Source: Hygrocybe punicea (taxonomy: Eukaryota > Basidiomycota > Agaricomycetes > Agaricales > Hygrophoraceae). From it: a stretch of 64,000 nucleotides of DNA. The notes under the pieces are model-generated. The model had not been told where the DNA came from and did no database searches. It saw only the letters and a list, made by a program, of their open reading frames with translations. The stretch lies in assembly GCA_963556145.1 (NCBI GenBank), contig OY744467.1, positions 2,046,001-2,110,000 on the forward strand. The letters are read 5' to 3'. This document shows positions 7,066 to 64,000 of the stretch, one piece after another (within the stretch, counting starts at the first letter, position 1; each line of letters opens with the position of its first letter). The translations under genes and the position numbers were made by a program.

Positions 7066-7189
7066 GTCAGTAGTCTTATCTATCCTTGTGGAATCTTCTT
7101 TCATCTCTCAGGGCATTCAGCAAGATATTACCAACTGAGTTGGGATGCCTGAAAATGAGATTGCCCAACTGGCTTGAGGATAGCTGAAT

Positions 7190-7510
7190 CAGGCTGAGAT
7201 ATATCCTGGCCCAACTCACATGGTCCAGGCTGATGTTCCCAGGATATATCCTGGCCCAACTCACATGGTCCAGGCTGGTGTTCCCAGGATATATCCTGGC
7301 CCAACTCACATGGTCCAGGCTGATGTTCTCAGGATATCTCATGGCCCAACTGACATAGTCCAGGCTGGTGTTCCCAGGATATATCCTGGCCCAACTCACA
7401 TGGTCCAGGCTAATATTTTCCCCAGCCAACTGGGACTGGTCTAGGCTGGTGCTTCTAGGATATATCTTGGGCCAGCTGAAATGGTCTAGGCTGATGTTTT
7501 CAGGATATGT
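7190..7510 (+). repeat. left subterminal 45-bp tandem array
   Basis: About seven imperfect copies of a 45-bp unit, each containing the perfect 10-bp palindrome GGATATATCC or a variant, followed by a CCCAACTSACATGGTCCAGG-type segment. The same unit in opposite orientation forms the right array at 15115-15958. Confidence 0.9.
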
Positions 7511-7791
7511 ATACCCTCCTAATTCTCCTCCTAATTATAACAATGTTGGTAACATCAGTGTTCAATTTATGCTGTCAATTCAATACTTTTTTTTCTTTTA
7601 TTCATATATATATATATTCATACCTCAATGTCCTCTTCAGCATCTTCTACCTCCAAGTATGGCTTGCTTGTCTTCTTCTTGATGGCAGTTCACCTCTGCT
7701 TATCTAAAGCATGCAACTCCTATCTGACCTGTGATGGTTGTTTTCCTTCCTCTTGCAATGTGAACCAGTAATGATAAAGCCCATTAGCACA

Positions 7792-14029: not shown

Positions 14030-15110
14030 ATGCCAAAAAACAAGTTCAGAAGACACAAAGGAACAATGGTTGAGACAGTATATGTCAAAAAGACCACTTC
14101 TAGAGGTGAAGTCAGAATATTAGCCAAAAAGAAACTGAAATTCTCCTCTCTACAAGAGAATACACAACCAATGATTACAGAACAGATATATATACCAGAA
14201 GAAGAGCCAGAAGAACCTCAAGCTTTACAAACTTCAAAAGGAAAGGTATATTCAATTTCTGTTACATGTTCAAATTAAAGTCTATTGAATCAAAATAACA
14301 GTCAGAATGATTATCTTCAAGAATGGAAGAACAGATGTACTTGGCCAAACTGATAGAGTTAAGCTCCACCAGTAAAGAGCTCATGCATCAAGTATCAGAA
14401 GTGTCTTGATTGTTAGCTTGGTAAATGACTGCTTCAAAGATTGTTGTCTTCAGGTATACCAAGACAATCCCTGTCATAAAATTCAATATTGGACTGGCCA
14501 ATTTTTTGATCTTGCTGATCTGGGAGAGTTGGGACTCGTGATAAATCTTGGGCATGATGGAAATCTGTACCCCCAACACTGAACATCACAATCCTAGGAG
14601 GATGTGGAAGCCAAGGATGTGCAGGCTGACGAAGCTGACTATGTAATGGCAGAAGAAGATGTGGATAATGTTTCTCCAACTAGGAGAACATCTATGGCTT
14701 TTGTGGAGACCTCTGGAATTTATCAATGGAATGTTGATTGGTGCCAATGCTCAACTACAGCTCCTCATGACATACAGCTTTGAACATCCAACTCTTTCCA
14801 GCAACATCATAACCCTAACCACTACTGCATATACATTTCTGGTTCTTGATCAATTCTACATTGATGTGATGGAGTGCAAGACTTCTGCTTTCAACTTGTA
14901 CTCAAAGCTTAGAAGGTCGACAAACAACAATTATGCACATTTGATACCATTAATTTCAAATTAAAATTCAAACATAAAGGAAATCTTGTCATAGGATCAT
15001 TATTGTGAATTGATATGTGTGTCAAAGCAATGGAGAAACTTGCTTTGATCTGAAATGTGCTGGCTTGGCACATGACCCCACAATTGACTACAAAGATGGT
15101 GGTATTGCAG
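14030..15110 (+). pseudogene. KDZ transposase N-terminus with CxC2-type region, truncated
   Basis: MPKNKFRRHKGTMVETVYVK starts at 14030; after an intron SQNDYLQEWKNR, then QYWTGQFFDLADLGELGLVI, VETSGIYQWNVDWCQCSTTA and LDQFYIDVMECKTSAFNLYS, followed by KLRRSTNNNYAHLIP. This order (SQNDYL, WTG..F...L..LGL, V...G...W.V.WC.C, F.VLD.F..D..ECKTS.FN.Y.KLRR) is the N-terminal half of CxC2-type KDZ transposases known from Agaricomycetes. Several stops interrupt it and it ends at the right tandem array; the catalytic domain is missing. Confidence 0.75.
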
Positions 15111-15114
15111 TTGT

Positions 15115-15958
15115 TTGTGGCCCAGGATATATCCTGACAATATTGGCCTGGACCATCCCAGCTGGGCAAGGATATATCCTGATAGCACCAGCCTAGACCA
15201 TGTCAATTGGTGCAGGATATATCCTGATAACACCAGCCTAGACCATCTTAGTTGGCCCAGGATATATCTTGACAATATCAGCCTGGACCATCCCAGCTGG
15301 GCCAGGATATAACTTGATAGCACCAGCCTAGACCATCTCAATTGGTGCAGGATATATCCTGAGAACATCAGCCTGGACCATCTCAGTTGGGCCAGGATAT
15401 ATCCTGGGAATATTAGCCTGGACCATGTCAGTTGGGCCAGGATATATCCTGAGAACATCAGCCTGGACCATGTTAGTTGGGCCAGGATATATCCTGAGAA
15501 CATCAGCCTGGACCATCTCAGTTGGGCCAGGATATATCCTGGGAATATCAGCCTGGACCATCCCAGCTGGGCCAGGATATAACTTGATAGCACCAGTCTA
15601 GACCATCTCAATTGGTGCAGGATATATCCTGAGAACATCAGCCTGGACCATCTCAGTTGGGCCAGGATATATCCTAGGAACATCAGCCTGGACCATGTTA
15701 GTTGGGCCAGGATATATCCTGGGAACACCAGCCTGGACCATCTCAGTTGGGCCAGGATATATCCCAGGAACATCAGCTTGGACCATGTTAGTTGGGCCAG
15801 GATATATCCTGGGAACACCAGCCTGGACCATCTCAGTTGGGCCAGGATATATCCTGGGAACATCAGCCTGGACCATCTCAGTTGGGCCAGGATATATCCT
15901 GGGAACACCAGCCTGGACCATCTCAGTTGGGCCAGGATATATCTCAGCCTGATTCAGC
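15115..15958 (-). repeat. right subterminal 45-bp tandem array
   Basis: About 18-19 copies of the 45-bp unit found at 7190-7510, in opposite orientation, each with GGATATATCC or a near variant. Since 45 is a multiple of three the array stays open as 15-residue protein repeats in several frames; those are not genes. Confidence 0.92.
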
Positions 15959-17801: not shown

Positions 17802-18409
17802 TGTGATGGCGAGTTCGGGTGTAGATCCGGAATGGGAATCTACTGTAAGGGGTGATCTGCTAGAAAGAGATCAAAGGAGTAAAGTCTTTCTATGTAGTCT
17901 AATCAATCCAACCTGAATCCGGGGTTCCGGATCAGAGGGGAAGTGAAGAGAGTGAAGTACGAAGACTAATAACTGATACGAAGGATGGACTAAGGAGTAG
18001 AACTAAAGGGGAGTGATACGAGGTGCAATATGATAGAGAGTGATAATCTACTTGTTTGTAGTGTAAAAGTATATCTTTTATACTACTGTGAAGGATCCTG
18101 TGCCGTAGTAACTATGTACTACAACCAAAGGCTATAATTGATAGGGGGAGTGGAGCGGAGGATAGGAGGGATGGTGCTATGTACTAAGTAACAGGAGACA
18201 AAGATACATGATATACAACTATATACGTACTGGTTCCGGGTCATTACGAACATTGCCTCTTGAGTAGGAACGATTCCGGAGGGGGATCCGGAGCGGAATC
18301 GACAGAGTGGAGCGGAATCGGGTGAAATTGACGGTATATGAATGGGAATGGACAGGGACGATGTGGGATATGAAGAGGATTCGGGTCCAGATGGCCCGGA
18401 GCCTCTACA
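17802..18409 (-). repeat. 3' LTR (relative to element sense)
   Basis: 608 bp, TG...CA ends, matches 22001-22608 with only a few differences (for example GATGGCG against GACGGCG near the start). Confidence 0.93.
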
Positions 18410-18714
18410 TCCGGTCAGGACTCAGACAGAGACCATCCCTGGTCGATCCATACGAAGTAACGAAGATACCGGGGTCATGGGAATAAATGAGCGGAGGCGA
18501 TGTCGAAAACGGGCGGAAACGGTGGTACAACGTGAACGGGACCGAAGCCGGCGTGTATCGAAGCATCGGGGAGCAGTGTTCCGGAGCTACTAAAAGAGGG
18601 TGGGGCAAAATGGCTGGATAAAGGAACAACGGTCACATGATGGGGCAACAAATACAAACAAGAAAACTTTTCGACGTGACTTTCCAACAATCTCAATAAC
18701 ACCAACAAGTCACA

Positions 18715-20134
18715 ATGTCCACGGAATACAACAACTTCCTCGCAAAGCTCGATGCGGAGACGCAGAAAGACTTCGAGAACGTGGTAGCCGAGTTACTGGC
18801 AGTGGACGCAGCCGGAAACGAGATCGTACGCGACGGATTCAAGAATGAGGCACGGCAATGGGTGGCGAGGCGATGACGGGCCATAGTAAGTGGTTCCGAT
18901 ACTCATAAACGGCACAAACTAATCATACTTAACAGCGGAACTACAGAGGGCTCATGACAGAAATCTGGGATGGCGGAATCGACGTAACGGAACCGAGGGA
19001 TTTTTCGATGGGTGGAGAGATGGTAGCCGAGGTCGAGCAGTGGTTGCAGAACCGGGAGGACTTCATGGAGCAGGAGCGGGAAGCAGCAAAGCAAAAGGAG
19101 CTTGATGACGCTCTACGACTTCAAGATGAGATGCAGGAGGAAGCGAGGAGGAACCGGATCGCGGAGGCGGCAGAGAAAAGGTGGAAACGGGTGGAGGAAT
19201 TACGCGAGTATGAGGAGGAGATAAATAGGAGGGCGGCGGCGGAGGCGGAAGCAAAACGGATCGAGGAGGCGGAAATGGACGGGGAGGAGGTCGAAGAAAC
19301 CGGCGGATACATAAACGAGACCAGTGGCGCGGAATGGCATGAATGGGCCGACCAACAACATGCAAAGTTCGTGGGAATCAAGGCGAGCCAGAAGAAACAG
19401 GCTATCCGGGATGACAAGACAGTTCACGGGGAGTACAACAGCGGGGATGATTTCTCAAACGCGAGCGGGAACGAGGATGTGGAGCCAAAGGGAAAGATTC
19501 CGGGGGTAAGTAAACTCTTGCCAACTCATAATCGTCGCGCCTAACTAATCCATAGTATATGCAATCGTTCCGGATCCGACAGTGCGATGCGTGCATGACC
19601 GCGAACACGGTTTGTCACAGAATCGAGGGATACGCGTGCGATCAGTGCAAAAAGCTTAAACAACGTTGCGGACTGTCGATGAAGGGACCGGCCACCGGAA
19701 CCGGAAAAGCAGAAAGGAAAGGGAAGGCAAAGGCAGGTAGTCCAAAGAGGAAAATCGTCACGAAGAAAATACCGAAGCCCGTGAGGAAGCCTAGGCTGCG
19801 GACCGGAGAGGCGTCAACGAGTAAGCAGACGTTGACCGACATCGAACCGGACACGGAATCGGAGTGGGACAATGGAATACGAGGGAATCCGTTCAAGCAC
19901 CCGCGGATCGGAGCTGGAATCAACGACCACGTCTGGGCAATGCGCAAGATGGCGACGGAAACGCAGAGGGAGATATCGGTGATTGCGGACGGCCTCTCAG
20001 AATACGTCGCGGAGGTCCACACGAAGCTAACCCGTTGGACGAAGGAACTGAACCGACTACGCGCAAACCAAGCCCATATCTTTGGCCAACTCGACATGAT
20101 CGACACGAAACTTGACGAAAGGAGAGGGGAGTAG
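18715..20134 (+). CDS. antisense zinc-cluster coiled-coil protein of the LTR element
   Basis: Three exons join in phase: 18715-18885, 18936-19505 and 19556-20134, with 50-nt introns having GTAAGT donors. The product would be about 438 residues: an N-terminal helical region (MSTEYNNFLAKLDAETQKDF), a long Glu/Arg/Ala-rich coiled coil (exon 2, about residues 85-170), a cysteine cluster CDACMTANTVCHRIEG then YACDQCKKLKQRC (exon 3), a basic Pro/Lys-rich linker and a C-terminal helix. The cluster spacing C-x2-C-x6-C-x7-C-x2-C-x6-C is close to fungal Zn2Cys6 DNA-binding domains. Codon 54 is TGA in a CGA-like context (AGG CGA TGA CGG), so this copy is probably inactive. It runs opposite to gag and ends about 80 bp from the gag frame's end. 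A homologue sits in the same place in the second LTR element. Confidence 0.75.
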
Positions 20135-20210
20135 AAGGGAAATAGACGGAAAGGGGAAACAGGACACAGGACTCTAGTACATATGTGTAAAAATAGCGTA
20201 TACAATAAAA

Positions 20211-21783
20211 CTATATACGGAAAGGGAATAACGGAAAGATAAGTGAAGCGGAATCTGGTGGTCGAGGTGAGGGCAGGACTGGAATACAACGGAAACAGAT
20301 TGGGACTGGAACAAGTGGGAAACAACGAAAAGAAAACGCAAAAATAGGAGACGGAAATGGGTCTATATCCCCACAGGAGTTTCTGAAAGAAGGTCGAAGG
20401 CAGAATGACAAGAGGAGGTGGAGAGCTTCTTGCAAAAATTCGAGCAAGGTGTCGAGGGGGTGGAGGTCCAATATATGATGGCAAAATAGAACGAAGGCGG
20501 AAACAAGGAAAAATATAAAATCGAGAACCGGAGTGCCAACACCAACACAATCCCATATAACAGGTGCGCCGCGTGACGGGTCTATAGACGACGGGATGCC
20601 CCAAGTGGGCAAAGACAGAACCAGGAACAACACGGGAGCAGAAACGGCAAGGGGAACTGGGAACGAAGGGGACGACATAACGGAATCAGAACTGGAATCG
20701 AAATCAACTAAGGGAGATGGAATGGGGTCTGGAATGGGAACGGGCACGGAACACTCAACCAAAGTCGACGGAATCTCGATAGACGTAGACAGAAGACAAA
20801 AGGATGACAATATCGAGGACGAAATGTCTATATCTGGAGAATCCGAGGACAATGGGAGTGGGTCCGGTACGAGTTCGTGGTCGGAAAGCGGAGGGGTCAA
20901 ATCCAGAGACAACATGGACGAAATAGGAAATGAAATGGATAAATCGGTGACCGGCATCAATAAATCGGGAATAGGATCAGATGGGGACGACATGGGACTG
21001 GACGACAATACCTGTAAACAAATAACAGTTTCAACAGGCACCGGAATGGATGGGGACAGAATATGGGATGGAGTATACGTAGGACTGGAATGAATGTGGG
21101 CGACGGAATGAACGATGGTGGGCGGAATTGAGGTCGGAATCGGTACCGGAGATGACAAAGCTATGATGGGTGGGGGACTGGGACCGGAATCGGGACTGGA
21201 GATAGTAACGGCAAGGGAAGGGGATTTTGGAACGGAGCGACAACCGGAAAGTAGGAATAAGGCGGCATCGTGGAAAACGTTGAGTGGGTACAGATCGTCA
21301 TGGTAATGGTCAGGAAGAAGGTAATGGAAGCGTTCTTTAATACGTAGACAAAGGTCTGAGTCGAATCCGTTGGCAAAGTATGTGTTCCGTTGCCTTTCCG
21401 ATAAATGGCCATTGTCGTACAGTACTCCAGAGATGCATATGAAGTCCCGGAAATATTCTCCTAAGTCCGTCTTGTTCTCTATACCGTCAGCCAATTGTTG
21501 TCTAATCAACTGATCGAGATCCGAGATCGTATACCGAATGGAATCCATGGCACCGGGGTAGAAGTCGAAAACGGCACGTCGGAAAGCGATGAAGTCCTTT
21601 GCGGAAGCGGCGGGAAGAGTAGACCAAAGTTCGTAGTCGTCGTTATTGAGGTACCGGAGCGTGTAGCGAATCTTCAAAGTGTCCATGAGTCCACAGTCGG
21701 AACCGAGTATGTCAATTTTGTCAAAGAAGTGGGGAAGGTCGCATTTGTCACCATGGAATGTCGGGGCGGAGGGATCACCTCAG
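20211..21783 (-). pseudogene. Gag-like protein of the LTR element
   Basis: Read leftward it begins GDPSAPTFHGDKCDLPHFFD, then the capsid-like core with RYTLRYLNNDDYELWSTLP, FDFYPGAMDSIRYTISDLDQ, LGEYFRDFICISGVLYDNG and LSERQRNTYFANGFDSDL. The same blocks in the same order occur in the Gag of the second element (for example SLRYASLSDYELWVSLP). The rest is a long Ser/Pro-rich tail without a zinc knuckle or protease. A TGA just upstream (MPL-stop-GDPSAPTF) interrupts the N-terminus. Confidence 0.72.
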
Positions 21784-21979
21784 AGAGGCATAAATCCGTG
21801 CGTCATATTGGGAACTTCTAAATCGGGATGCAGGTCGGAAAGCGGGTCGGGTCGAGGAGGTTCGAGGTCGAGGTCGAAGTTGTAAGCGGAACTAAATGAC
21901 TAGAGTCGGGTAGAAGAGGGAAATGTCATGAAAGTCAAAGCCGACCGTGGGGAGGGTATGAAAAGACAGAAAAACTTCA

Positions 21980-21998
21980 CTCCTCACGGTGGGCTCCA
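21980..21998 (-). other. tRNA primer-binding site
   Basis: TGGAGCCCACCGTGAGGAG starts two bases after the 5' LTR; TGG is complementary to a tRNA 3' CCA. The same site with one change occurs after the LTR of the second element (from 56285). I could not assign the tRNA. Confidence 0.7.
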
Positions 21999-22000
21999 GT

Positions 22001-22608
22001 TGTGACGGCGAGTTCGGGTGTGGATCCGGAATGGGAATCTACTGTAAGGGGTGATCTGCTAGAAAGAGATCAAAGGAGTAAAGTCTTTCTATGTAGTCTA
22101 ATCAATCCAACCTGAATCCGGGGTTCTGGATCAGAGGGGAAGTGAAGAGAGTGAAGTACGAAGACTAATAACTGATACGAAGGATGGACTAAGGAGTAGA
22201 ACTAAAGGGGAGTGATACGAGGTGCAATATGATAGAGAGTGATAATCTACTTGTTTGTAGTGTAAAAGTATATCTTTTATACTACTGTGAAGGATCCTGT
22301 GCCGTAGTAACTATGTACTACAACCAAAGGCTATAATTGATAGGGGGAGTGGAGCGGAGGATAGGAGGGATGGTGCTATGTACTAAGTAACAGGAGACAA
22401 AGATACATGATATACAACTATATACGTACTGGTTCCGGGTCATTAGGAACATTGCCTCTTGAGTAGGAACAATTCCGGAGGGGGATCCGGAGCGGAATCG
22501 ACAGAGTGGAGCGGAATCGGGTGAAATTGACGGTATATGAATGGGAATGGACAGGGACGATGTGGGATATGAAGAGGATTCGGGTCCAGATGGCCCAGAG
22601 CCTCTACA
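22001..22608 (-). repeat. 5' LTR (relative to element sense)
   Basis: 608 bp, same termini as the other LTR. On the minus strand it is followed at 21998 by TGGAGCCCACCGTGAGGAG, the primer-binding site. Confidence 0.93.
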
Positions 22609-55052: not shown

Positions 55053-55476
55053 TAGTGTTGCCGAAGTCCGGTTTGGTCCGGTTTTCGGCCTTTTTGGCTG
55101 AACCAAAAACCGGACCCTTGGTTCGGTTCAACCCCCCCGCTGAACCAGAACCGGAACCGCATGGGACCGTTCCATGCGATCCAGTCTGCGTTCCGATGCG
55201 GTTTGAACCGCGAACCACCTTCCTCCACCCTCAAATTTCCTCGCAAGCTGCAGCACCACGTCAATTGACGTGGGCCTGGGGTTGCGAGGAGTTGGGGGGG
55301 TGGGGAGGAAGGGGGGGACCGTCCGCTGCCGTGGGTGCTGCGTCGGTGCTGGCGCTGTTGTTGCAACTGCTGCCGTAGCTGCTGTTGCCGTAGCTGCTGC
55401 CATTGCTGCTGCCATTGTTGCCGCTGCCATTTTCGTTGCAGCCGTTGCTGCTGCCACTGCTGCTGGGGTTGCCGTT
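55053..55476 (+). mobile_element. TAGTGTTG-type TIR element cut by the LTR element
   Basis: Starts TAGTGTTGCCGAAGTCCGG after CTATAGAG (55045-55052, the presumed 8-bp target copy), has the CCGGTTT-rich subterminal region, the CAATTG palindrome at 55239-55289 and a GTTGCTGCC-type tract, then ends abruptly at the LTR tip at 55477. The other half should lie beyond the right edge of the window. Confidence 0.8.
55239..55289. repeat. CAATTG-centred 51-bp palindrome, copy D
   Basis: Arms CCTCGCAA/TTGCGAGG, centre CACGTCAATTGACGTG; 186 bp from the TIR tip. Confidence 0.88.
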
Positions 55477-56282
55477 GTAGAGGGTCCTCGACCCTCTGAG
55501 GCCGTAACATTGATATCTAGCAAATCCACTCGAACCTGACGTCTCTAGCAATCTACGCTCGAACCCGATGCAACCCGATGCAACCTGATGCAACCCGATG
55601 CATACCGACTAGCACGGCTGCTCACGTACCTGGTCGGTCCATCTCCCAAACTCATGGAACTTCAAATATCAAAGATAGATCTCATCGGACTGGGATCCCG
55701 ACATCGGACTTGCCTTATTCGCGCCTAGCGTCTCCCTTATGGAGATACAGTAAAGTATATTACATCTTTTACGGTTTTTTATATCTTCCACCCATTTTCC
55801 CTGTCATGGTCGCCTCGCAACCCTCTTCCTACTTGTCCATTTTTATTCTCCTTTGTTTTCTCTCATCGGCCGAGGACTCTCGTCCGAAGCTAGGTACAGA
55901 AATTTGTAGTATAAAAATGGTGCCCAAGCGCCGTCTTATAATAAGAAAAACCAGTTCCCCCGTTTCCTCTCTCTGAGAATCAGCCTCTCAGTAAAATCCA
56001 TCGCACACACTACTTGTCGGATTCCTCGACGCTCTCCCCGTCGTTCTACCACCTTTATCTCTACGTCCCTCGTCACCCGACACCCGACCCGCCGTACCCG
56101 ACATCGTCGGCTTCATTGGCTTCGACTGGTCTCGATAGATTTCAGTAGTTTACTCGGTGGCTTCTTACCATTTATATCCTATCATCTTACTGAAGCTTGT
56201 TAGACTATTCCTAGTCACTTCTACGCTGACCCCCACAGGCTTAGGATTACTATTCCGCAGCCACCCCGACCTCGCCTTTACA
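55477..56282 (+). repeat. 5' LTR
   Basis: Starts TGTAGAGGGTCC (with a small hairpin AGAGGGTCCTCGACCCTCT) and ends CCTTTACA just before the primer site. Includes short CGATGCAACC repeats near 55570-55610. The 3' copy is not in the window, so the length (806 bp) rests on the tips and primer site only. Confidence 0.75.
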
Positions 56283-56284
56283 TC

Positions 56285-56301
56285 TGGAGCCCACCGCGAG
56301 G
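56285..56301 (+). other. tRNA primer-binding site
   Basis: TGGAGCCCACCGCGAGG, two bases after the LTR; it matches the site of the other LTR element except at one base (GCGAG/GTGAG). tRNA not assigned. Confidence 0.75.
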
Positions 56302-56642
56302 GATAGTCTAGCACCACCATAGCTTCCTCTTCCCGTATCCCTCCCTCTGACTGTTGTCTTCGAGATCTTCCTCGAAGAACTCTTCAACAAGAACTCTCTT
56401 TAGCTGCCTTCAACCCGACAATCGATGACGACTTCTTCCAGCTAGTACCCGACCACCTCGCTCGACATAACAATCTCCCGCTCGTCTCAGGGTCAAACAC
56501 CCCCCTATATCTTTCATCTTCATCTGACCGTCTCGAATCGGTCGATATACCGATAATTACCATAACAGCCGACTCATCCGATCTCAGTTCGACACCTGCA
56601 TCGCCTACGTCCCCGACTTCAACCTCGTTAGAACCCCCGTCC

Positions 56643-59081
56643 ATGTCTTCGCTCTTGACATCGATAACTCCGTCATCGTCATCGTCTCTGTCTTCGCTCT
56701 CGACATCGAAAACTCCGTCATCGTCATCGTCCCCGTCTTCGTCTTCGTCCACGCCGTCATCGTCCACGTTACCTGACCCGCTCATCGTACACCCAAGAAC
56801 CGCTTCATCGACATCTCAGCGCCTTTCACCCACAATGACTTCGACCGCTGGATCCTCGACTGCTACCGTTCCCCATGTTACTCCTCGACAGATGCCCGCT
56901 CGCGGTCACTCCACGGCCCCGACCTTCGATGGGAACCTGCTCAATTTAAACCGCTTCTTCGAAGAAGTCGAGATACTTGCTGCCGATGCTGCTCTCGACG
57001 ACGCAGGACGCATTAAGCATAGTCTGCGCTACGCATCGCTTAGCGACTACGAGCTTTGGGTGAGTTTACCTAGCGCGACCGGCATTGATTATACCGTGTT
57101 CAAAAGGAGCATACTCGTGCTATACCCGGGCACAGAAGACGATCACCGGTACACTATGGCGGATCTCGACCGTCTTACGCACACCCAAACCGCTTACGGT
57201 ATCCGTACCCGCGCTGAACTTGGCAAATATTACCGCGAGTTCATTTGGATCTCAGGATTCCTCTTAGACAAGGGTCGAATCTCTCCTCGAGAACGCAACA
57301 TCGCGTACGAGAACGGCTTCCATCTCGAGCTTAAAAAGGACATCAAAACCCGTCTGCAGTACCAAAAACCGAACCATTTCCATAGTGACCCTTACGACTT
57401 CCAGGACTTCCACAATTGCGCCCACTTCCTGCTGGCCAGAACCGCGGCCGAACCGTCCACCGTCTCTCGTCTATCGTCAACGTCGCCTGCCGCCATCCGG
57501 TACTCGACTCCAATAGAACCCGCCACCCGCTACCCGCCACCCGCTCGCTATGACCTGGTCATTCCTAAAGCGGAACCGGTCGAACCTAACGTATCCGACC
57601 TATTTCGTCTCGTTTCGCAACAACTCGCCATCCTCACGCAAGCCCTCACCGAACGCAACAACCCCCCAAAGCTGTGTGCAAATAGGGCTGAGCCGACCAC
57701 CGTGGGACAGGGTTTCACCAATTTCAACTGCCTCTTTTGCGACGACCCGTTCCATCGTATACGCGATTGTCCTATTTGCGAGCAGTACACTCGAGACGGG
57801 ATATGCCGCAAGAACGAGCACGGCCGCATCGTATTGCCTAATGGAATGTATCTTCCAAAGGCTATTGTTGGCAAAAATATGAAGGATCGCTTCAATGCGT
57901 GGCACGCACAGAACCCCAGCAACCGCGCTCCCCCTGCCCGCAACCCCACAGAACCGTTCCAACGCGACCTGCCGCCTCATGTCAAAGCTAACTTTGTCTC
58001 CGCCGTCGAAGTACCCACCTACGAACCAGAGGTCACCACTGAGTACGCCGACATCTTTCAGTCCACGACGTCCGACATCGATGACGACAATGAACAAATT
58101 AAGGTTCTGGAAGCCGAAGTGCATCGGCTTCGCAAACGGGTTAGATTCGACGGTGTAGAGATCCCATCGAAGGCGAAAGGCAAGTCTAGAGAAACGTTTC
58201 CCAATCCGCCCGCCACTTCCACGTCCGTCCCCGCCGCGAAACCCGCCGAGAAAACGGCCAGACCTATCAACAAGCACCCAATCACCATAGTCCCCCCTTC
58301 GAACACACAGCCGACCGAGCCGACCACTCTTGTACCGTGCACTCCCCAGAACCTTCCCGCATTGCACCCCCAATACCGCTACCAGGCCCCCATCGAAGAT
58401 CCCGGTATCGCCAAATCCGTCATCGACCGCGCGCTCAATTCTCAAGTCTGCATTTCACAACGAGAACTTTTAGCCATGTCGTCCGACGCCCGCCGTCACA
58501 TGAAGGACCTCACTACTTCGAAAAAGGTCACCGCCGAGAGTAACAACGTCAAGGTCTTCCATTTTCACGCACCCGAAATCCCTACCCGCGCCTGCCAACA
58601 TTGTCAGGAAAATGTCCCGCTTGTCGTCGGCCGGGACTCAGTCCCTCTTTGTGCGGTCTACCCGCTCATCAATGGCAAGTTCATATTCGAGTGCATCCTC
58701 GACAACGGTTCCATGATCATCGGCATGTGGCGTGATATTTGGGAGAAACTCGGTTACGGCCTCCAAAACATGAAGATGCGGATGCAGTCGGCAAATAAAT
58801 GCGACAACGACACCCTCGGCCGGATCGCCAACCTAAAATTCACTTTTGGCGACGTCGATCTATTCCTACAAGTCCAAGTCGTCAACGACGCCCCCTACGA
58901 AATCCTCATCGGCCGCCCGTTCTTCACACTTTCTGAGGCCCTTACGAAGGATTATAAAAACGGAGAGCAACAAGTCACGATCATGGATCCAAACACCGGC
59001 GCCGTCATCACCTTGCCCACCATCAAGCACAACCAAAAGAACCGACGAGAGCGGTCCGACACTGGAAAGCCGGATTTTTAG
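56643..59081 (+). CDS. Gag with zinc knuckle and protease region
   Basis: 812 codons, open. After a Ser/Pro-rich start (a later ATG at 56835 is equally possible) the capsid region has FDGNLLNLNRFFEEVEILAA, then SDYELWVSLPSA and LGKYYREFIWISGFLLDKG. A CCHC knuckle CLFCDDPFHRIRDC (C-x2-C-x4-H-x4-C) lies at about residues 365-378. A retropepsin-like segment follows at about residues 680-760: PLINGKFIFECILDNGSMII and later EILIGRPFFTLSEA. The active-site triplet reads DNG in place of the usual D-S/T-G, so activity is doubtful. The frame ends GAT TTT TAG; pol is open in the -1 frame from the T-run, which would suit -1 slippage on TTT at the stop. Confidence 0.85.
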   Translation: MSSLLTSITPSSSSSLSSLSTSKTPSSSSSPSSSSSTPSSSTLPDPLIVHPRTASSTSQRLSPTMTSTAGSSTATVPHVTPRQMPARGHSTAPTFDGNLLNLNRFFEEVEILAADAALDDAGRIKHSLRYASLSDYELWVSLPSATGIDYTVFKRSILVLYPGTEDDHRYTMADLDRLTHTQTAYGIRTRAELGKYYREFIWISGFLLDKGRISPRERNIAYENGFHLELKKDIKTRLQYQKPNHFHSDPYDFQDFHNCAHFLLARTAAEPSTVSRLSSTSPAAIRYSTPIEPATRYPPPARYDLVIPKAEPVEPNVSDLFRLVSQQLAILTQALTERNNPPKLCANRAEPTTVGQGFTNFNCLFCDDPFHRIRDCPICEQYTRDGICRKNEHGRIVLPNGMYLPKAIVGKNMKDRFNAWHAQNPSNRAPPARNPTEPFQRDLPPHVKANFVSAVEVPTYEPEVTTEYADIFQSTTSDIDDDNEQIKVLEAEVHRLRKRVRFDGVEIPSKAKGKSRETFPNPPATSTSVPAAKPAEKTARPINKHPITIVPPSNTQPTEPTTLVPCTPQNLPALHPQYRYQAPIEDPGIAKSVIDRALNSQVCISQRELLAMSSDARRHMKDLTTSKKVTAESNNVKVFHFHAPEIPTRACQHCQENVPLVVGRDSVPLCAVYPLINGKFIFECILDNGSMIIGMWRDIWEKLGYGLQNMKMRMQSANKCDNDTLGRIANLKFTFGDVDLFLQVQVVNDAPYEILIGRPFFTLSEALTKDYKNGEQQVTIMDPNTGAVITLPTIKHNQKNRRERSDTGKPDF

Positions 59082-61123
59082 AAGTCGAGGACCCGGAGAT
59101 ACCTCTCGGGAAGGACGCACCGGGAGATGAGAAGCTGCCACTCGAAAGCGACCACACCTATACCACAAACTATGCTTCCCTTTTGCCGTTTCCCCTAGAA
59201 GAGGACTTATGTTTTTCTATCGATTTAGATTTCTCTTCGTCTCAGCCTCAGACTGCCGCCCAGTACATTTCATTGTTGACCGATGTACAAAATCAGCTAC
59301 GTACTACTGATACCCTTCCTTCGTCTTGTTCCGTCTCTGCTCCTGTGTCACCTATTTCTTCTTCGAATATTTGTAACAAAGCCTCTACTGAACACGCTAC
59401 TTATATCTCGTATACCACCCCCCCTACCAGGGACCTAAAAGGAGTCGTTACCAAGAAAAAGTATAAGAAGGTAGCTGATCATATCCGCCCAATTTCTACC
59501 ACTCTCCCCGATGAATACCGTATCATACGCGAGATCACCGGCGACCCGCTAGCCGATTTACCCACGCTCCCAACTCACCCGCCCGACTTTACACCCAGCA
59601 CCCGCTATACCCAGGAACGACACGACGCGATGCTGATGAACCTGGATGGATTCCTTTGGCCTGAGGAAGAAAAACTCGGCCACCATATCATCAAAACGCA
59701 AGAAGCCGCCTTCGCCTGGAACGAATCCGAGAAAGGCCAGTTCAATACGGACTACTTCCCGCCGATCCACATTCCCACCGTACCGCACGACCTGTGGGTC
59801 CATCGCAATATCCCAATCCCACCCGGCATCCTTAACGAAGTCATTGGCATCATCAAAGACAAAATTAACGCCGGTACCTATGAACCCTCGAATTCGTCAT
59901 ACCGCTCCCGCTGGTTCTGCGTTTTGAAAAAGGATGGGAAGTCTCTTCGAATCGTCCACGATCTACAGCCGCTTAACGCCATCACTATTCACGATCCTGC
60001 CATACCGCCCATGACCGAGCACTTGGCCGAGGCCTTTGGTGGCCACTCTTGCTACGCTTCCTTCGACCTCTTCGTCTCTTTCGACCAACCCCTCGTCCAC
60101 CCCTCGTCTCGGGACTATATGACCTTTCAGTCTCCACTCGGAACGCTTCGACTTACGCGGATCGCTATGGGATACACAAATTCCCCACAGATCCTACACG
60201 GTGACTCCACGTACATCCTCCATGACGAAATCCCTCATCTTGCCGTTCCGTATATGGACGATATTCCCGTCAAAGGGCCTCCAACCCGCTACAAGCAACC
60301 CGACGGTACCTACGAGACCATACCCAAGAACCCAGCAATCCGACGTTTCATTTGGGAGCACTTCCAAGGTGTCAACTGCGTCATCCAGCGTTTCCGCTAT
60401 GTCGGCGGTACCTTCAACGGCAAGAAACTCGAGTTGTGTCGACCCTCAGTCATCGTTGTCGGCCACCGATGCACATACGAAGGAAGAGTAGCCGACGACT
60501 CCAAAGTACAGAAGATTCGCGATTGGCCACTGCCAACCAACCTCACCGAAGTTCGCGCCTTTCTCAGTATCTGCGGCGTCTTGCGTATTTTTATCAAGGA
60601 CTTCTCGCTCCACTCCCGACCCCTCGTCCATCTTACCCGCAAAGGTATACCCTTCGAGTTTGGTGAAGAAGAAGAGACCACCGTCGACTACCGCAAAAAA
60701 GCCGTCATTTCATCACCAGCACTGCGCGCTATCGATTACATGCGTGAATGGGAGGTCATTCTCGCTGTCGATTCATCTGTCCTTGGAGTCGGCTTCGTTC
60801 TCATGCAAATCCGCGCTGACGGAAAACATTATCTGAATCGCTTTGGTTCAATATCGTGGAACGAACGCGAAGCCCGATACTCCCAGTCCAAGCTCGAACT
60901 TTACGGTCTCTTCAGGGCCCTCCGCGCCTATCAGATTTTCATTATCGGCGTCCACAACCTCACCGTTGAAGTCGACGCGAAGTACATAAAAGGGATGCTC
61001 AACAACCCCGACATTCAGCCCAATGCAACGATCAACCGATGGATAGCCGGCGTGCTCTTATTTGACTTTAGACTTGTTCACGTACCCGCTTCCGCACACG
61101 GTGCACCCGACGGACTCTCCTGA
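59081..61123 (+). pseudogene. Pol: reverse transcriptase and RNase H part
   Basis: Open in the -1 frame relative to gag from the gag stop; there is no need for an ATG. Order: acidic linker, TFP-like leader, RT with LKKDGKSLRIVHDLQPLN, YASFDLFVSFDQPLVHPSS, TRIAMGYTNSPQ and the catalytic YMDDIPVKGP (about 60255), the thumb (ICGVLRIFIKDFSLHSRPL), then an RNase H-like part with ILAVDSSVLGVGFVLMQI and YSQSKLELYGLFRALRAYQI and LTVEVDAKYIKGMLNN. It ends at a TGA (61121-61123) in a GLS-stop sequence where the family has arginine (CGA-like). Further stops follow at 61400 and 61412. Confidence 0.88.
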
Positions 61124-62729
61124 TGCCCCCACGCTGCAGAAGACCCCGAGGAGATCAACAACTCCGACGATTGGCTCGACCACTCCTACGGTTTCTTTAT
61201 GGAAGTCGTCAACTACCGACCCGTCCCCATACCATCTATACCGATTGCCGTATGCGGCCGCTGCCGTGCCACAGCCGACCGACTCCAAGAATTACCGGCC
61301 ATCCTCGTCTACACAAATCAGGAAGCCGTTTCTGACATACCACGATCCAATAAAGCCTGCGCGGCTGACGTTCGTCTTGCCCTCGTCGAGACTTGGTTAT
61401 GAGATCTAACCTGACCCGTGAACCTCATGGACGAAGAACACCGTCTGTTCTTACGATACGCCCTTGAATTCTTCGTCACTGATAACAAGCTTTGGCGTAA
61501 AGACCGTCACGGAAAACACAAACTCGTCATACCGCCCGACCGCCGGCTTCAATTACTCAAAGACGCTCATGACTCTCGGCCATAAAGGCATATTCTCCGT
61601 CCGCGCCCGGCTACTCGACCATTTCTGGTGGCCGCACCTCGACCACGACGTTAAGTGGTACGTCCAGTCTTGCCATCAGTGCCAAGTACGGCAAATGTGT
61701 TATCATCACATTCCGCCGACCGTCGCTACACCGGCCTCACTATTCCGCAAAGCATACATCGACATGATGTTTATGCCACGATCCAGTGGCTACTGGTACA
61801 TTGTCCAAGCCCGTTGCTCCCTCTCCACTTATCCCAAGTTCCGAATGCTACGCTGTGAGACTGGCTCGACCATCGGCACATTCCTGTTCGAAGACATCTT
61901 ATGCCGTTGGGGCACTCTCGAAGAAATCATTACTGACAACAGCAAGCCGTTCGTAGAAGCGCTCGACTATCTCGCCTCCCGCTATGGTATCCGGCACATC
62001 CGCATTTCGCCCTATAACTCACAAGCGAATGGACCCGTTGAGCGTCGCCACCTAGATGTCCAGGAGGCCATTATGAAAAGTTGTGACGGAGATGAAAAGA
62101 AATGGCACACCGTAACCCACTCCGTATTTTGGGCCGAACGGGTCACGACACACAAAAGCCTCGGATACTCGTCCTACTACATTGCACATGGAGTAGAACT
62201 GCTTTTGCCATTTGATTTTGCCGAAGCTACGTACATGGTTCCGACGCAAGATACGATGTCTACGACCGACCTCATAGTCATCCGCACCCGACAACTTCGT
62301 AAACGAGAAGCCGACCTGGATCGGGTCAAAGAAAAGCTTACCAAATCTCGGCTTGCGTCTGCCCGGCAATTTGAGCAGAAATACGCCAACACGATCAAAG
62401 TTTTCGACTTCGAACCCGGTAACCTTGTTCTCGTCCAAAATTCACGTATCGAAATGTCTCTTGATCGTAAAGCAAAACCGCGGTACTTTGGACCCATGGT
62501 TGTCGTCAGGAAAACAGAAGGCGGATCCTACATACTCACCGAACTCGACGGTGCGGTTTCTAAATCTCGATTTGCCGCTTTCCGAGTCGTACCCTACCAC
62601 GCCCGCTCAAAAATATTGATACCGTTGGATGACTTCTTACAATACCCCGATGCCAATGATACCGATTCAAATGATCTTGATGATCCGACGTACCCGCCCT
62701 CTATAGACTCCTCACCCGACGATGATTAA
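61124..62729 (+). pseudogene. Pol: integrase part
   Basis: The linker 61124-61575 is in the RT frame with TGA codons at 61400 and 61412; near 61575-61580 the frame shifts (HDS against LGHKG). The integrase then runs open to 62729: HHCC finger GHKGIFSVRARLLDHFWWPH then CHQCQVRQMC; catalytic acids in YIDMMFMPRSSGYW, EEIITDNSKPFVEAL and NGPVERRHLDVQEAI (D, D, E); and a C-terminal GPY/F-like module PRYFGPMVVVRKTEGGSYIL. No chromodomain is seen; the end is acidic. With the three stops and the shift this copy cannot make full Pol. Confidence 0.86.
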
Positions 62730-62937: not shown

Positions 62938-64000
62938 TTACAGGTGGCCGGTCTCGTAATCCCGCTTCAACATCGCCAACCTTGAGGTCGACCGTTTGAG
63001 ATCGACGCGGAGCCGCTGGAACTCTTGACCAAAGTGGACGAGGTGACGGTTGACGTTGGTGCCCAGGGCTCCCAGCTCCTCCATAAGGACCGCTAGCCGC
63101 ACCGACACTTGCTCATAATTCTCAATCGTCAAAACGAACGGGTTTGCTGCCAAGGCCGCCCTAAGCCTTTTCGTCGGCCGCTCTTCCTCCGACTCCTCCT
63201 CGTCTTTGTCATCATCCTCAACCGATTCCACATCCTCGACCTGCGGTTTGCTCGTTGAGGCCCGGGCAGGCCTACCGTGGATCGGCTTTGTCGTGAACGA
63301 CAACGGCTTCCTCGTGCCGACCACGACCTCTTTCCCCTTTCCGGTATCCACCTTGCGCCGACCCCCACCTGTCCGGTGTGTAGTGTTAGTACATCTTTTC
63401 TTCAGCCTCCGGCATCGTTCGCACACGTAGCCCGTGATGCCTCGACACGCCTCTTGAGCCTTGACGCAGTTGGTGCAGGGTTGTAGGGGAAATGGCCCGG
63501 TGAACTGTTACCAGGATCAGTGACTAAAGAACAAATGAACCGACACAGGAACTCACTGTCGTACCAGCCAGGTCTCCGGTCTCTATGCCCGGTGTATCTA
63601 CGTCTTCTACATCAGCCGGTGTCTCTGGTGCCGGGTCGATGGGGCCTTCCGCTTCTTGAGTCCAGTGCTGCCCGTGTTGTTCTATTCTAAGCCGCTCCCG
63701 CCTTTCCTCTGCCACCTTTCGCCTTTTCTCCGCCTCCGCTCGTGCATTTGCCTCTGCCAACCGTCTGGCCTCCTCTTCCCACGTAGCCGCTTCTTCATCC
63801 GCCTGCCGTCTAGCTTCTTCCTTTTCCTGCCTCTCTTGGTCCGCCGCTTCTTTCAGCCACTCTTCGACATCGTTAGCGTACGATTGGCAGTCGGCCCATA
63901 ATGGTGGTGTTACTGGCCTTGTACCACCAGCTCGGAGTTCCGCGACGATTCCATTATAAGCACACTAGTGGGACAACATGAGCTATCTTAAAGACACACG
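62938..64000 (-). CDS. antisense zinc-cluster coiled-coil protein, 5' end outside the window
   Basis: Read leftward: an exon from beyond the edge to 63557 with ADCQSYANDVEEWLKEAADQ and a long Glu/Arg/Ala coiled coil, a 52-nt intron, and a last exon 63504-62938 with CTNCVKAQEACRGITG and YVCERCRRLKKRC, giving C-x2-C-x6-C-x7-C-x2-C-x6-C, identical in spacing to the protein at 18715-20134. Then a basic linker, an acidic run (DDDKDEEESEEE) and a C-terminal helix. Intron position just before the cluster is the same in both genes. No stop codon is seen in the visible part. A DNA-binding, nuclear role is suggested by similarity to Zn2Cys6 domains; its job for the element is unknown. Confidence 0.75.

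Follow-up and report, generated by a model that had tools for sequence, protein, structure and literature searches.

The zinc-cluster gene described here, which runs antisense to gag and pol, is a selected, functional accessory gene of a fungal Ty3/gypsy retrotransposon lineage. It was found in two LTR elements of the window, the whole stretch of 64,000 nucleotides of Hygrocybe punicea DNA analysed, and in many related copies in the genome. Our best reading, to which sequence and structure predictions lead us with about even confidence, is that the product may be an antisense-expressed, dimeric, nuclear DNA-binding regulator of its own element.

The second of the two genes (copy 2) had been described from the window alone, as an antisense gene in a full Ty3/gypsy element. 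The sequence was therefore extended to the 3' LTR, as that description had proposed, by 1.5 kb more of the contig past the window end (L001; coordinates above 64000 are contig-extended). The gene starts at 64200 and the LTR at 64371. The whole element, LTR-bounded and assigned to what we call family B, spans 55476 to 65167 and contains the following features:

55476..56282, plus strand: 5' LTR (97% by blastn to the 3' LTR)
56285..56301, plus strand: putative primer-binding site TGGAGCCCACCGCGAGG, assigned from its position
56307..59081, plus strand: open frame for gag/protease; contains DUF4100 and, read by eye, a CX2CX4HX4C knuckle
58958..61123, plus strand: pol part 1, RT/RNase H frame, terminated by a stop in this copy
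61422..62729, plus strand: pol part 2, integrase, with H2C2 and a weak rve match
62938..63504, minus strand: exon 3 of the antisense gene, 188 aa, with the zinc cluster, a basic region, an acidic stretch and a long C-terminal helix
63505..63556, minus strand: intron 2, GTGAGT..CAG, 52 bp
63557..63964, minus strand: exon 2, 408 bp, with a conserved start followed by a charged region
64020-63965, minus strand: intron 1, 56 bp (window part 63965..64000)
64200-64021, minus strand: exon 1, 60 aa, outside the window
64335-64348, contig-extended: dyad GACCA-N4-TGGTC
64371-65167, contig-extended: 3' LTR, beyond the window end

The antisense placement inside an LTR-bounded element was thus borne out, the three exons lying on the minus strand from 64200 to 62938, between the integrase end (62729) and the 3' LTR (64371-65167). 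The description as a full element holds for the LTRs and for the gag and pol domains, and fails for the integrity of pol, which in copy 2 is broken by a stop at 61121-61123 and resumes in a different frame from 61422. Family B has the layout of a Ty3/gypsy element, with two LTRs, gag, protease, and RT-RNase H ahead of integrase; RNase H and integrase were recognized with Pfam, RT through relatives, and the aspartyl protease by a weak match (E 0.014 in the copy-2 frame). An uninterrupted pol, the mark of an autonomous element, is missing from the window copy, and a 1257-residue open frame for pol was found in other family-B copies. The best 120 of 1548 matches to pol included fungal relatives in Leucocoprinus, Pleurotus djamor, Rhodofomes and Candolleomyces. 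The two LTRs of copy 2 are identical at 783 of 797 compared positions, with another 10 gap columns, and the element is flanked by a possible 4-bp target duplication, CCGT.

The antisense gene of copy 2 is open throughout although the pol of the same copy is interrupted. Both of its introns have GT..AG ends and are placed between codons. Intron 2 adjoins the first codon of exon 3, nine residues ahead of the first cysteine, and the six cysteines are spaced C-X2-C-X6-C-X7-C-X2-C-X6-C. The preliminary description had placed an intron immediately before the cluster, at the same position in both copies; this intron is present as described, and the single-intron model gave way to one with two introns and three exons. 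Exon 2 of copy 2 is shorter than in the other 29 gene-ranked family-B copies (408 bp vs 520-543 bp), and the identity of its exon-3 protein to those of the 149 other listed family-B copies reaches only 87-93%.

Copy 1 belongs to a second element (family A) at 17802-22608, in the orientation opposite to copy 2:

17802..18409, minus strand: 3' LTR
18431..18444: dyad GACCA-N4-TGGTC upstream of the gene
18715..18885, plus strand: exon 1 of the antisense gene, with one in-frame stop in copy 1
18936..19505, plus strand: exon 2
19556..20134, plus strand: exon 3 with the zinc cluster
20211..21779, minus strand: gag frame, the sole frame found opposite the gene
22001..22608, minus strand: 5' LTR

The strand relation, place and cysteine spacing agree between the two copies, as had been proposed. 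The claim that two related but distinct elements keep the gene also stands (exon 3 is 26-31% identical), with the correction that the copy-1 element is without pol: apart from the gag part of one polyprotein, the pol of copy 2 and its 120 relatives gave no pol match in copy 1. The same queries gave no pol match inside the LTRs of L084, a family-A copy with LTRs 99.8% identical over 615 bp, which is a recent gag-plus-gene insertion; its pol matches occurred only in the flank. Positions 1-165 of L084, in this flank, match the integrase of a different Ty3/gypsy element, and L084 has thus inserted beside or into another such element. Two widely spaced family-A copies, taken as candidate autonomous copies, likewise contained no pol match in the stretch examined. 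At G000:C35:1851867-1871474, five family-A exon-3 places follow one another at intervals of exactly 4334 bp and gag places recur at the same interval; this is a tandem array of the pol-less element. Elsewhere in the window, at 7076-7534 and 15000-15953, the list of open reading frames contains long tandem repeats coding NISLDHVSWARIYPG-like units.

The exon-3 proteins of A and B can be aligned from end to end. The copy-1 exon-3 protein is 26% identical to that of copy 2, and those of 21 other family-A copies are 27-31% identical; in one BLASTP comparison of a family-A protein with copy 2, 58 of 189 residues were identical (E 3e-21). Exons 1 and 2 of one A copy could be aligned to those of one B copy, with E 1e-9 and 4e-6, and both intron positions and the CX2CX6CX7CX2CX6C motif are common to the families. 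The gag proteins of copies 1 and 2 share 40% identity over 220 residues, and their elements have nearly identical primer-site sequences, while the LTRs of A and B align over at most 14 bases.

The LTR differences within each window element, counted by eye, were mostly transitions: all 14 in copy 2, of which 11 were CpG-type, and 5 of the 6 in copy 1, where 4 of the 6 were CpG-type. Such a transition-rich pattern is as expected of methylated-DNA deamination or of a RIP-like process. If the elements are under attack of this kind, the protein might serve to counter host silencing, for instance through binding to element DNA that is methylated or silenced. We consider this explanation improbable; the CpG-type changes are circumstantial support, and nothing links the protein itself to silencing.

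We searched the genome (92 Mb in 42 contigs) for further copies. The best 150 candidates were scored per query and the copy counts are therefore lower bounds, with at least 150 exon-3 matches for family B and at least 150 for family A. Family-B copies (best 150) were collected by the last 132 residues of integrase. In 147 of the 150 listed copies, all or part of exon 3 was found antisense within 1.5 kb of integrase, which shows that the gene is not missing from the family; its absence from all intact members had been named as fatal to the proposal. For 133 of the 150, a listed exon 3 lies at most 1.5 kb downstream of integrase, never on the same strand; 2 more copies show exon 3, as do 12 of the other 15 by tblastn. 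One copy (L079) retains only the last 82 residues of the antisense exon 3. No exon 3 was found in the 1.4 kb examined past the integrase of L069, nor in the same distance in L071, where an exon-3 place lies about 1.9 kb further on; L080 has no exon 3 and a match to exon 1 only, in the other orientation. Family B thus has an antisense ORF between pol and the 3' LTR in most copies, as in the aORF-3R class of elements.

Family-A copies (best 150) were collected by gag. A listed exon 3 was found within 8 kb downstream of gag in at least 120 of the 150, antisense in 119 and on the same strand in 1. In 97 of these 120 copies gag and gene are separated by 1.0-1.5 kb, too little to accommodate pol, and at all 30 gene-ranked family-A loci gag was matched within 1.5 kb past the gene. 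As judged from the 150 best matches of each family, the occurrence in two families refutes the explanation that a host transcription-factor gene was recently captured and is hitch-hiking, which we regard as hardly tenable. The zinc cluster is of fungal type, and passages of PMC7264820 state that LTR elements do capture genes; against a recent capture, the gene is shared by two families that have LTRs aligning over no more than 14 bases and exon-3 proteins as diverged as described above, and all or part of exon 3 accompanies integrase in 147 of 150 listed family-B copies.

The gene is mostly intact. A fully open and correctly spliced model was obtained for 23 of 30 family-A and 22 of 30 family-B copies among the gene-ranked samples (L009-L068), copy 2 being among the open models and copy 1 not, and the length of exon 2 is a multiple of three in 27/30 A and 29/30 B copies. 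These samples are biased towards a conserved exon 3, and more weight is therefore given to a random sample of 20 family-B copies drawn from the integrase list with the window copy excluded, of which 17 were examined; the bias is thereby corrected for family B only. Of 15 whole genes in this sample (three of them clipped by about a base at the sequence edge), 12 were open with GT/AG ends and 3 had one in-frame stop in exon 2. The splice ends were preserved in all 15. In the partial sequences, the frame of exon 3 is broken in L076 and unbroken in L077, of which exon 2 aligns only in part.

Codon-level selection was measured as Nei-Gojobori dN/dS, pooled within each family, since dS between A and B is saturated. 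For the gene-ranked copies, dN/dS in exons 1-3 was 0.30, 0.31 and 0.18 in family A and 0.15, 0.46 and 0.22 in family B. In a null model, every observed change was re-placed at random on sites with the same base and CpG state, which gave means of 0.55-0.73 as compared to the observed 0.15-0.46 across the six exon sets. The weakest case was exon 2 of family B, with 0.458 against a null of 0.565 (sd 0.036). The integrase-drawn family-B copies (n=15) gave 0.154, 0.400 and 0.358 for exons 1-3, as compared to null means of 0.486, 0.609 and 0.666, and for each exon 0 of 100 nulls were as low as observed. The null treats pairs as independent and its spread is consequently too narrow, yet the gaps are still large. 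The comparison of dN/dS between copies that the preliminary description had asked for thus gave values below 1 and below the matched null in every exon of both families, and together with the linkage to integrase in 147 of 150 copies it supports the view of the gene as an accessory module of a gypsy lineage.

Changes shared among copies were compared with rarer ones in the gene-ranked family-B sample. In exon 2, the ratio of nonsynonymous to synonymous changes per site was 0.30 for changes common to at least three copies as compared to 1.21 for singletons. In exon 3, the corresponding ratios were low for shared changes (0.18) as well as singletons (0.24), with 0.39 for doubletons; integrase gave 0.38 for shared changes and 0.44 for singletons.

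In all six exon sets, dN/dS was lower in the gene frame than in any of the other five frames. We also counted differences that are silent in one frame only, comparing the gene frame with the wobble-aligned opposite frame. In exon 3, third-position differences that only the gene frame leaves silent are more frequent than those that only the opposite frame leaves silent, at 743:56 in A and 292:162 in B, and the test also favours the gene in exon 2 of A (530 to 88) and exon 1 of B (53 to 0). The result is reversed in exon 1 of A (0 to 26) and exon 2 of B (0 to 154), for which the frame evidence is therefore weaker. In exon 2 of B, codon position 1 varies slightly less than position 2. The wobble-aligned opposite frame is open in 0/29 copies of B exon 2 and in 28/29 copies of A exon 1, and thus stop codons do not exclude it in the latter. 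The gag frame is open antisense through exon 3 in 14/29 A copies, including L084, and in 0/29 B copies. We considered an overlapping gene in this minus-strand frame of family A and judged it, from the exon-3 frame test, to be a shadow of the codon pattern of the gene.

These tests bear on the explanation that the antisense RNA, through interference or double-stranded RNA, or a DNA signal in cis is what matters and that the reading frame is incidental. Retroelement antisense transcripts can regulate in this manner according to passages of PMC7264820, the DNA upstream of the gene contains a conserved block, and the frame test did not come out for the gene in exon 1 of A and exon 2 of B. We nevertheless disfavour this explanation as very unlikely, on account of the codon-specific selection beyond mutation-matched nulls in all three exons, the exon-2 indels that are mostly multiples of three and the splice ends, which were kept in each of the 15 complete genes of the random sample.

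The cysteine pattern was present in all 60 gene-ranked copies, and all six cysteines and some of their neighbours are invariant in 39 aligned A and B proteins. Zn2Cys6 clusters have the consensus spacing CX2CX6CX5-12CX2CX6-9C, with which all 60 copies agree. The Pfam profile Zn_clus (PF00172) scored below its cut-off (12.0-14.9 bits vs 21; E 0.03-0.24), the best E among 39 members being 0.0096. The profile matched in two pieces: positions 17-32, the second half, fall on the first three cysteines of B, and positions 1/2-14, the first half, fall on the last three cysteines, also in A. The swapped order of these weak pieces suggests that the Gal4-like basic half (CERCRRLKKRC) comes second, and from this we infer a Zn2Cys6 cluster with its halves swapped. 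In Gal4, the basic DNA-contact residues are in the first half and the loop contains a proline. The cluster thus departs from the Gal4 type, with its basic residues in the second half and a linking loop without proline, mostly RGITGYV or RGVTGYV in B and RGIEGYA in A.

Helices after the first and fourth cysteines and a coiled-coil-like helix downstream are features of Gal4. In AlphaFold2 models, helices begin one residue past the first and fourth cysteines, with low confidence over the cluster (block means of about 50-65), and a helix of more than 60 residues follows at about 122-185 in B and 116-191 in A, with pLDDT above 90 over most of its length; the basic and acidic stretch between is modelled as unstructured. 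Overall, the likeness to Gal4-type Zn2Cys6 proteins consists of six cysteines at Gal4-like spacing and of these predicted helices, whereas the sub-threshold Pfam score, the basic half in second place and the proline-free loop set the protein apart. Basic runs resembling nuclear localisation signals were read by eye only. No match to the TRP28 domain (PF04195) was obtained at E up to 1 in two full-length proteins, and a sequence search of the PDB gave nothing better than E 0.24, mostly to helical stretches. Judging from the sequence features, the product is probably a DNA-binding zinc protein.

The same features, i.e. the basic region, the zinc cluster and the long helix, would also suit a nuclear factor acting after transcription, either by tethering cDNA or the integration complex to chromatin or by moving RNA or DNA of the element through the nuclear envelope. 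The plant protein GENE23 of Grande is nuclear with a role described as unknown in passages of PMC7264820, which fits such a factor as well. A tether from an autonomous family could be expected to serve the pol-less family in trans, which makes the separate version of family A, 26-31% identical, less expected, and we consider a tethering or transport role unlikely, if worth keeping in mind.

A candidate site for a regulator was found between the 3' LTR and the gene. In B the start codon lies 168-173 bp from the 3' LTR, in A commonly 331-339 bp. In the 400 bp upstream, comparison of one A with one B copy gave a single strong match (E 7e-6), a block of 21 bp with 20 of 21 positions identical. The block contains the perfect dyad GACCA-N4-TGGTC. 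The LTR edge is 21 bp from the dyad in A and 22 bp in B, and in the extended window of 65.5 kb the dyad is found just twice, at one place in each element. The dyad is present in 27/29 A and 29/29 B copies, and TCACGTGA in 24/29 A and 28/29 B copies. Mismatches in the dyad arms amount to 0.36% in A (n = 28) and 0% in B (n = 29), vs 1.7% and 1.2% outside the block. The block may serve as an operator or be bound by a host factor, or it may be a signal in replication or in RNA; the dyad sits near the expected place of plus-strand priming, which makes a replication signal or an RNA hairpin possible. CGG sites enriched in the LTRs were considered as Zn2Cys6 targets and were set aside, given that CGGA is also enriched in internal parts of A and TCGG in a host stretch.

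On the reading of the protein as a regulator of its own element, the gene would have its promoter in the interval that separates the 3' LTR from the start codon. Introns of an antisense gene would be invisible to the splicing of the genomic RNA and would thus survive retrotransposition; since an antisense intron stays in the genomic RNA, the conservation of both introns is in keeping with an antisense transcript. The protein would be nuclear and would form dimers by way of the long helix at its C-terminus, and its zinc cluster, including the basic half, would bind DNA in or beside the LTR, the shared dyad being the candidate site. Binding would then tune transcription of the element. The pol-less element would borrow pol in trans while it keeps its own gag and its own antisense-gene protein, as suits a factor that must match its own element. 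The retention of the gene by relatives without copying enzymes hints that its product controls the element itself. A more specific version, which we put forward only tentatively, is that a half-swapped Zn2Cys6 dimer acts on the dyad as an HBZ-like self-regulator, and that pol could be borrowed between families and the regulator could not, so that the regulator would define the identity of the element. As A and B have identical dyad arms, the arms alone do not explain family specificity.

Antisense ORFs between pol and the 3' LTR are known in several plant families and in Boty, with functions given as unknown, and the products of some localise to the nucleus, according to passages of PMC7264820 (for the former also PMC11963269). 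The role of antisense genes in LTR retrotransposons in general is likewise described as unknown in parts of these two papers. Boty of Botrytis cinerea carries the antisense gene brtn (Zhao et al. 2011, via passages of PMC7264820 and PMC8365987). Compared by description only, Boty is similar in that it is an LTR element of a fungus and has an additional gene on the strand opposite to gag-pol, of the class between pol and 3' LTR (excerpts of PMC7264820); it differs in its ascomycete host, and these excerpts mention neither a pol-less family nor a zinc cluster for it. The plant genes gene23 of Grande and TRP28 of Retand, and those of RIRE2 and PvRetro13, share position, orientation and presence in most copies, and a nuclear or DNA-binding role has likewise been proposed for plant antisense ORFs. 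Some Retand elements with antisense ORFs are non-autonomous and without some coding domains, as stated in passages of PMC11963269, which provides a plant parallel for retention of the gene in defective elements. Unlike the plant cases, the fungal gene encodes a six-cysteine cluster in three spliced exons, has no TRP28 domain in the two full-length proteins, and is kept by family A without any pol in the copies checked.

The viral genes HBZ of HTLV-1 and APH-2 of HTLV-2 are similar in that an antisense gene at the 3' end encodes a nuclear protein acting on its own virus (passages of PMC7264820 and PMC11963269). HBZ is a different type of protein and is used here as an analogy only, with no claim of homology. 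The HTLV antisense promoter lies inside the 3' LTR, unlike the position between LTR and start codon suggested for the fungal gene. Searches of the open-licence literature brought up no description of an antisense gene with a zinc cluster in a fungal retrotransposon, and in the survey of fungal LTR elements PMC3248453 the word "antisense" is absent from the main text as far as accessible. Homologue searches with the full B protein and the exon-3 region of A gave no match among ORFs of at least about 236 and 252 aa, a range above that of exon-3-only ORFs of about 190 aa. In viral contigs, 36 stretches fit the exon-3 pattern; none was confirmed and none matched integrase.

New in the present case are the type of protein, the conservation of its splicing, selection at the codon level, the retention without pol and the shared dyad. 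Codon-level selection over many copies, a motif of DNA-binding type and a candidate site make the role of an antisense gene unusually readable here, and the pol-less family that keeps the gene amounts to a natural deletion experiment. Thus, the hypothesis that the gene encodes a regulator of its own element could be tested with one protein and one short DNA site.
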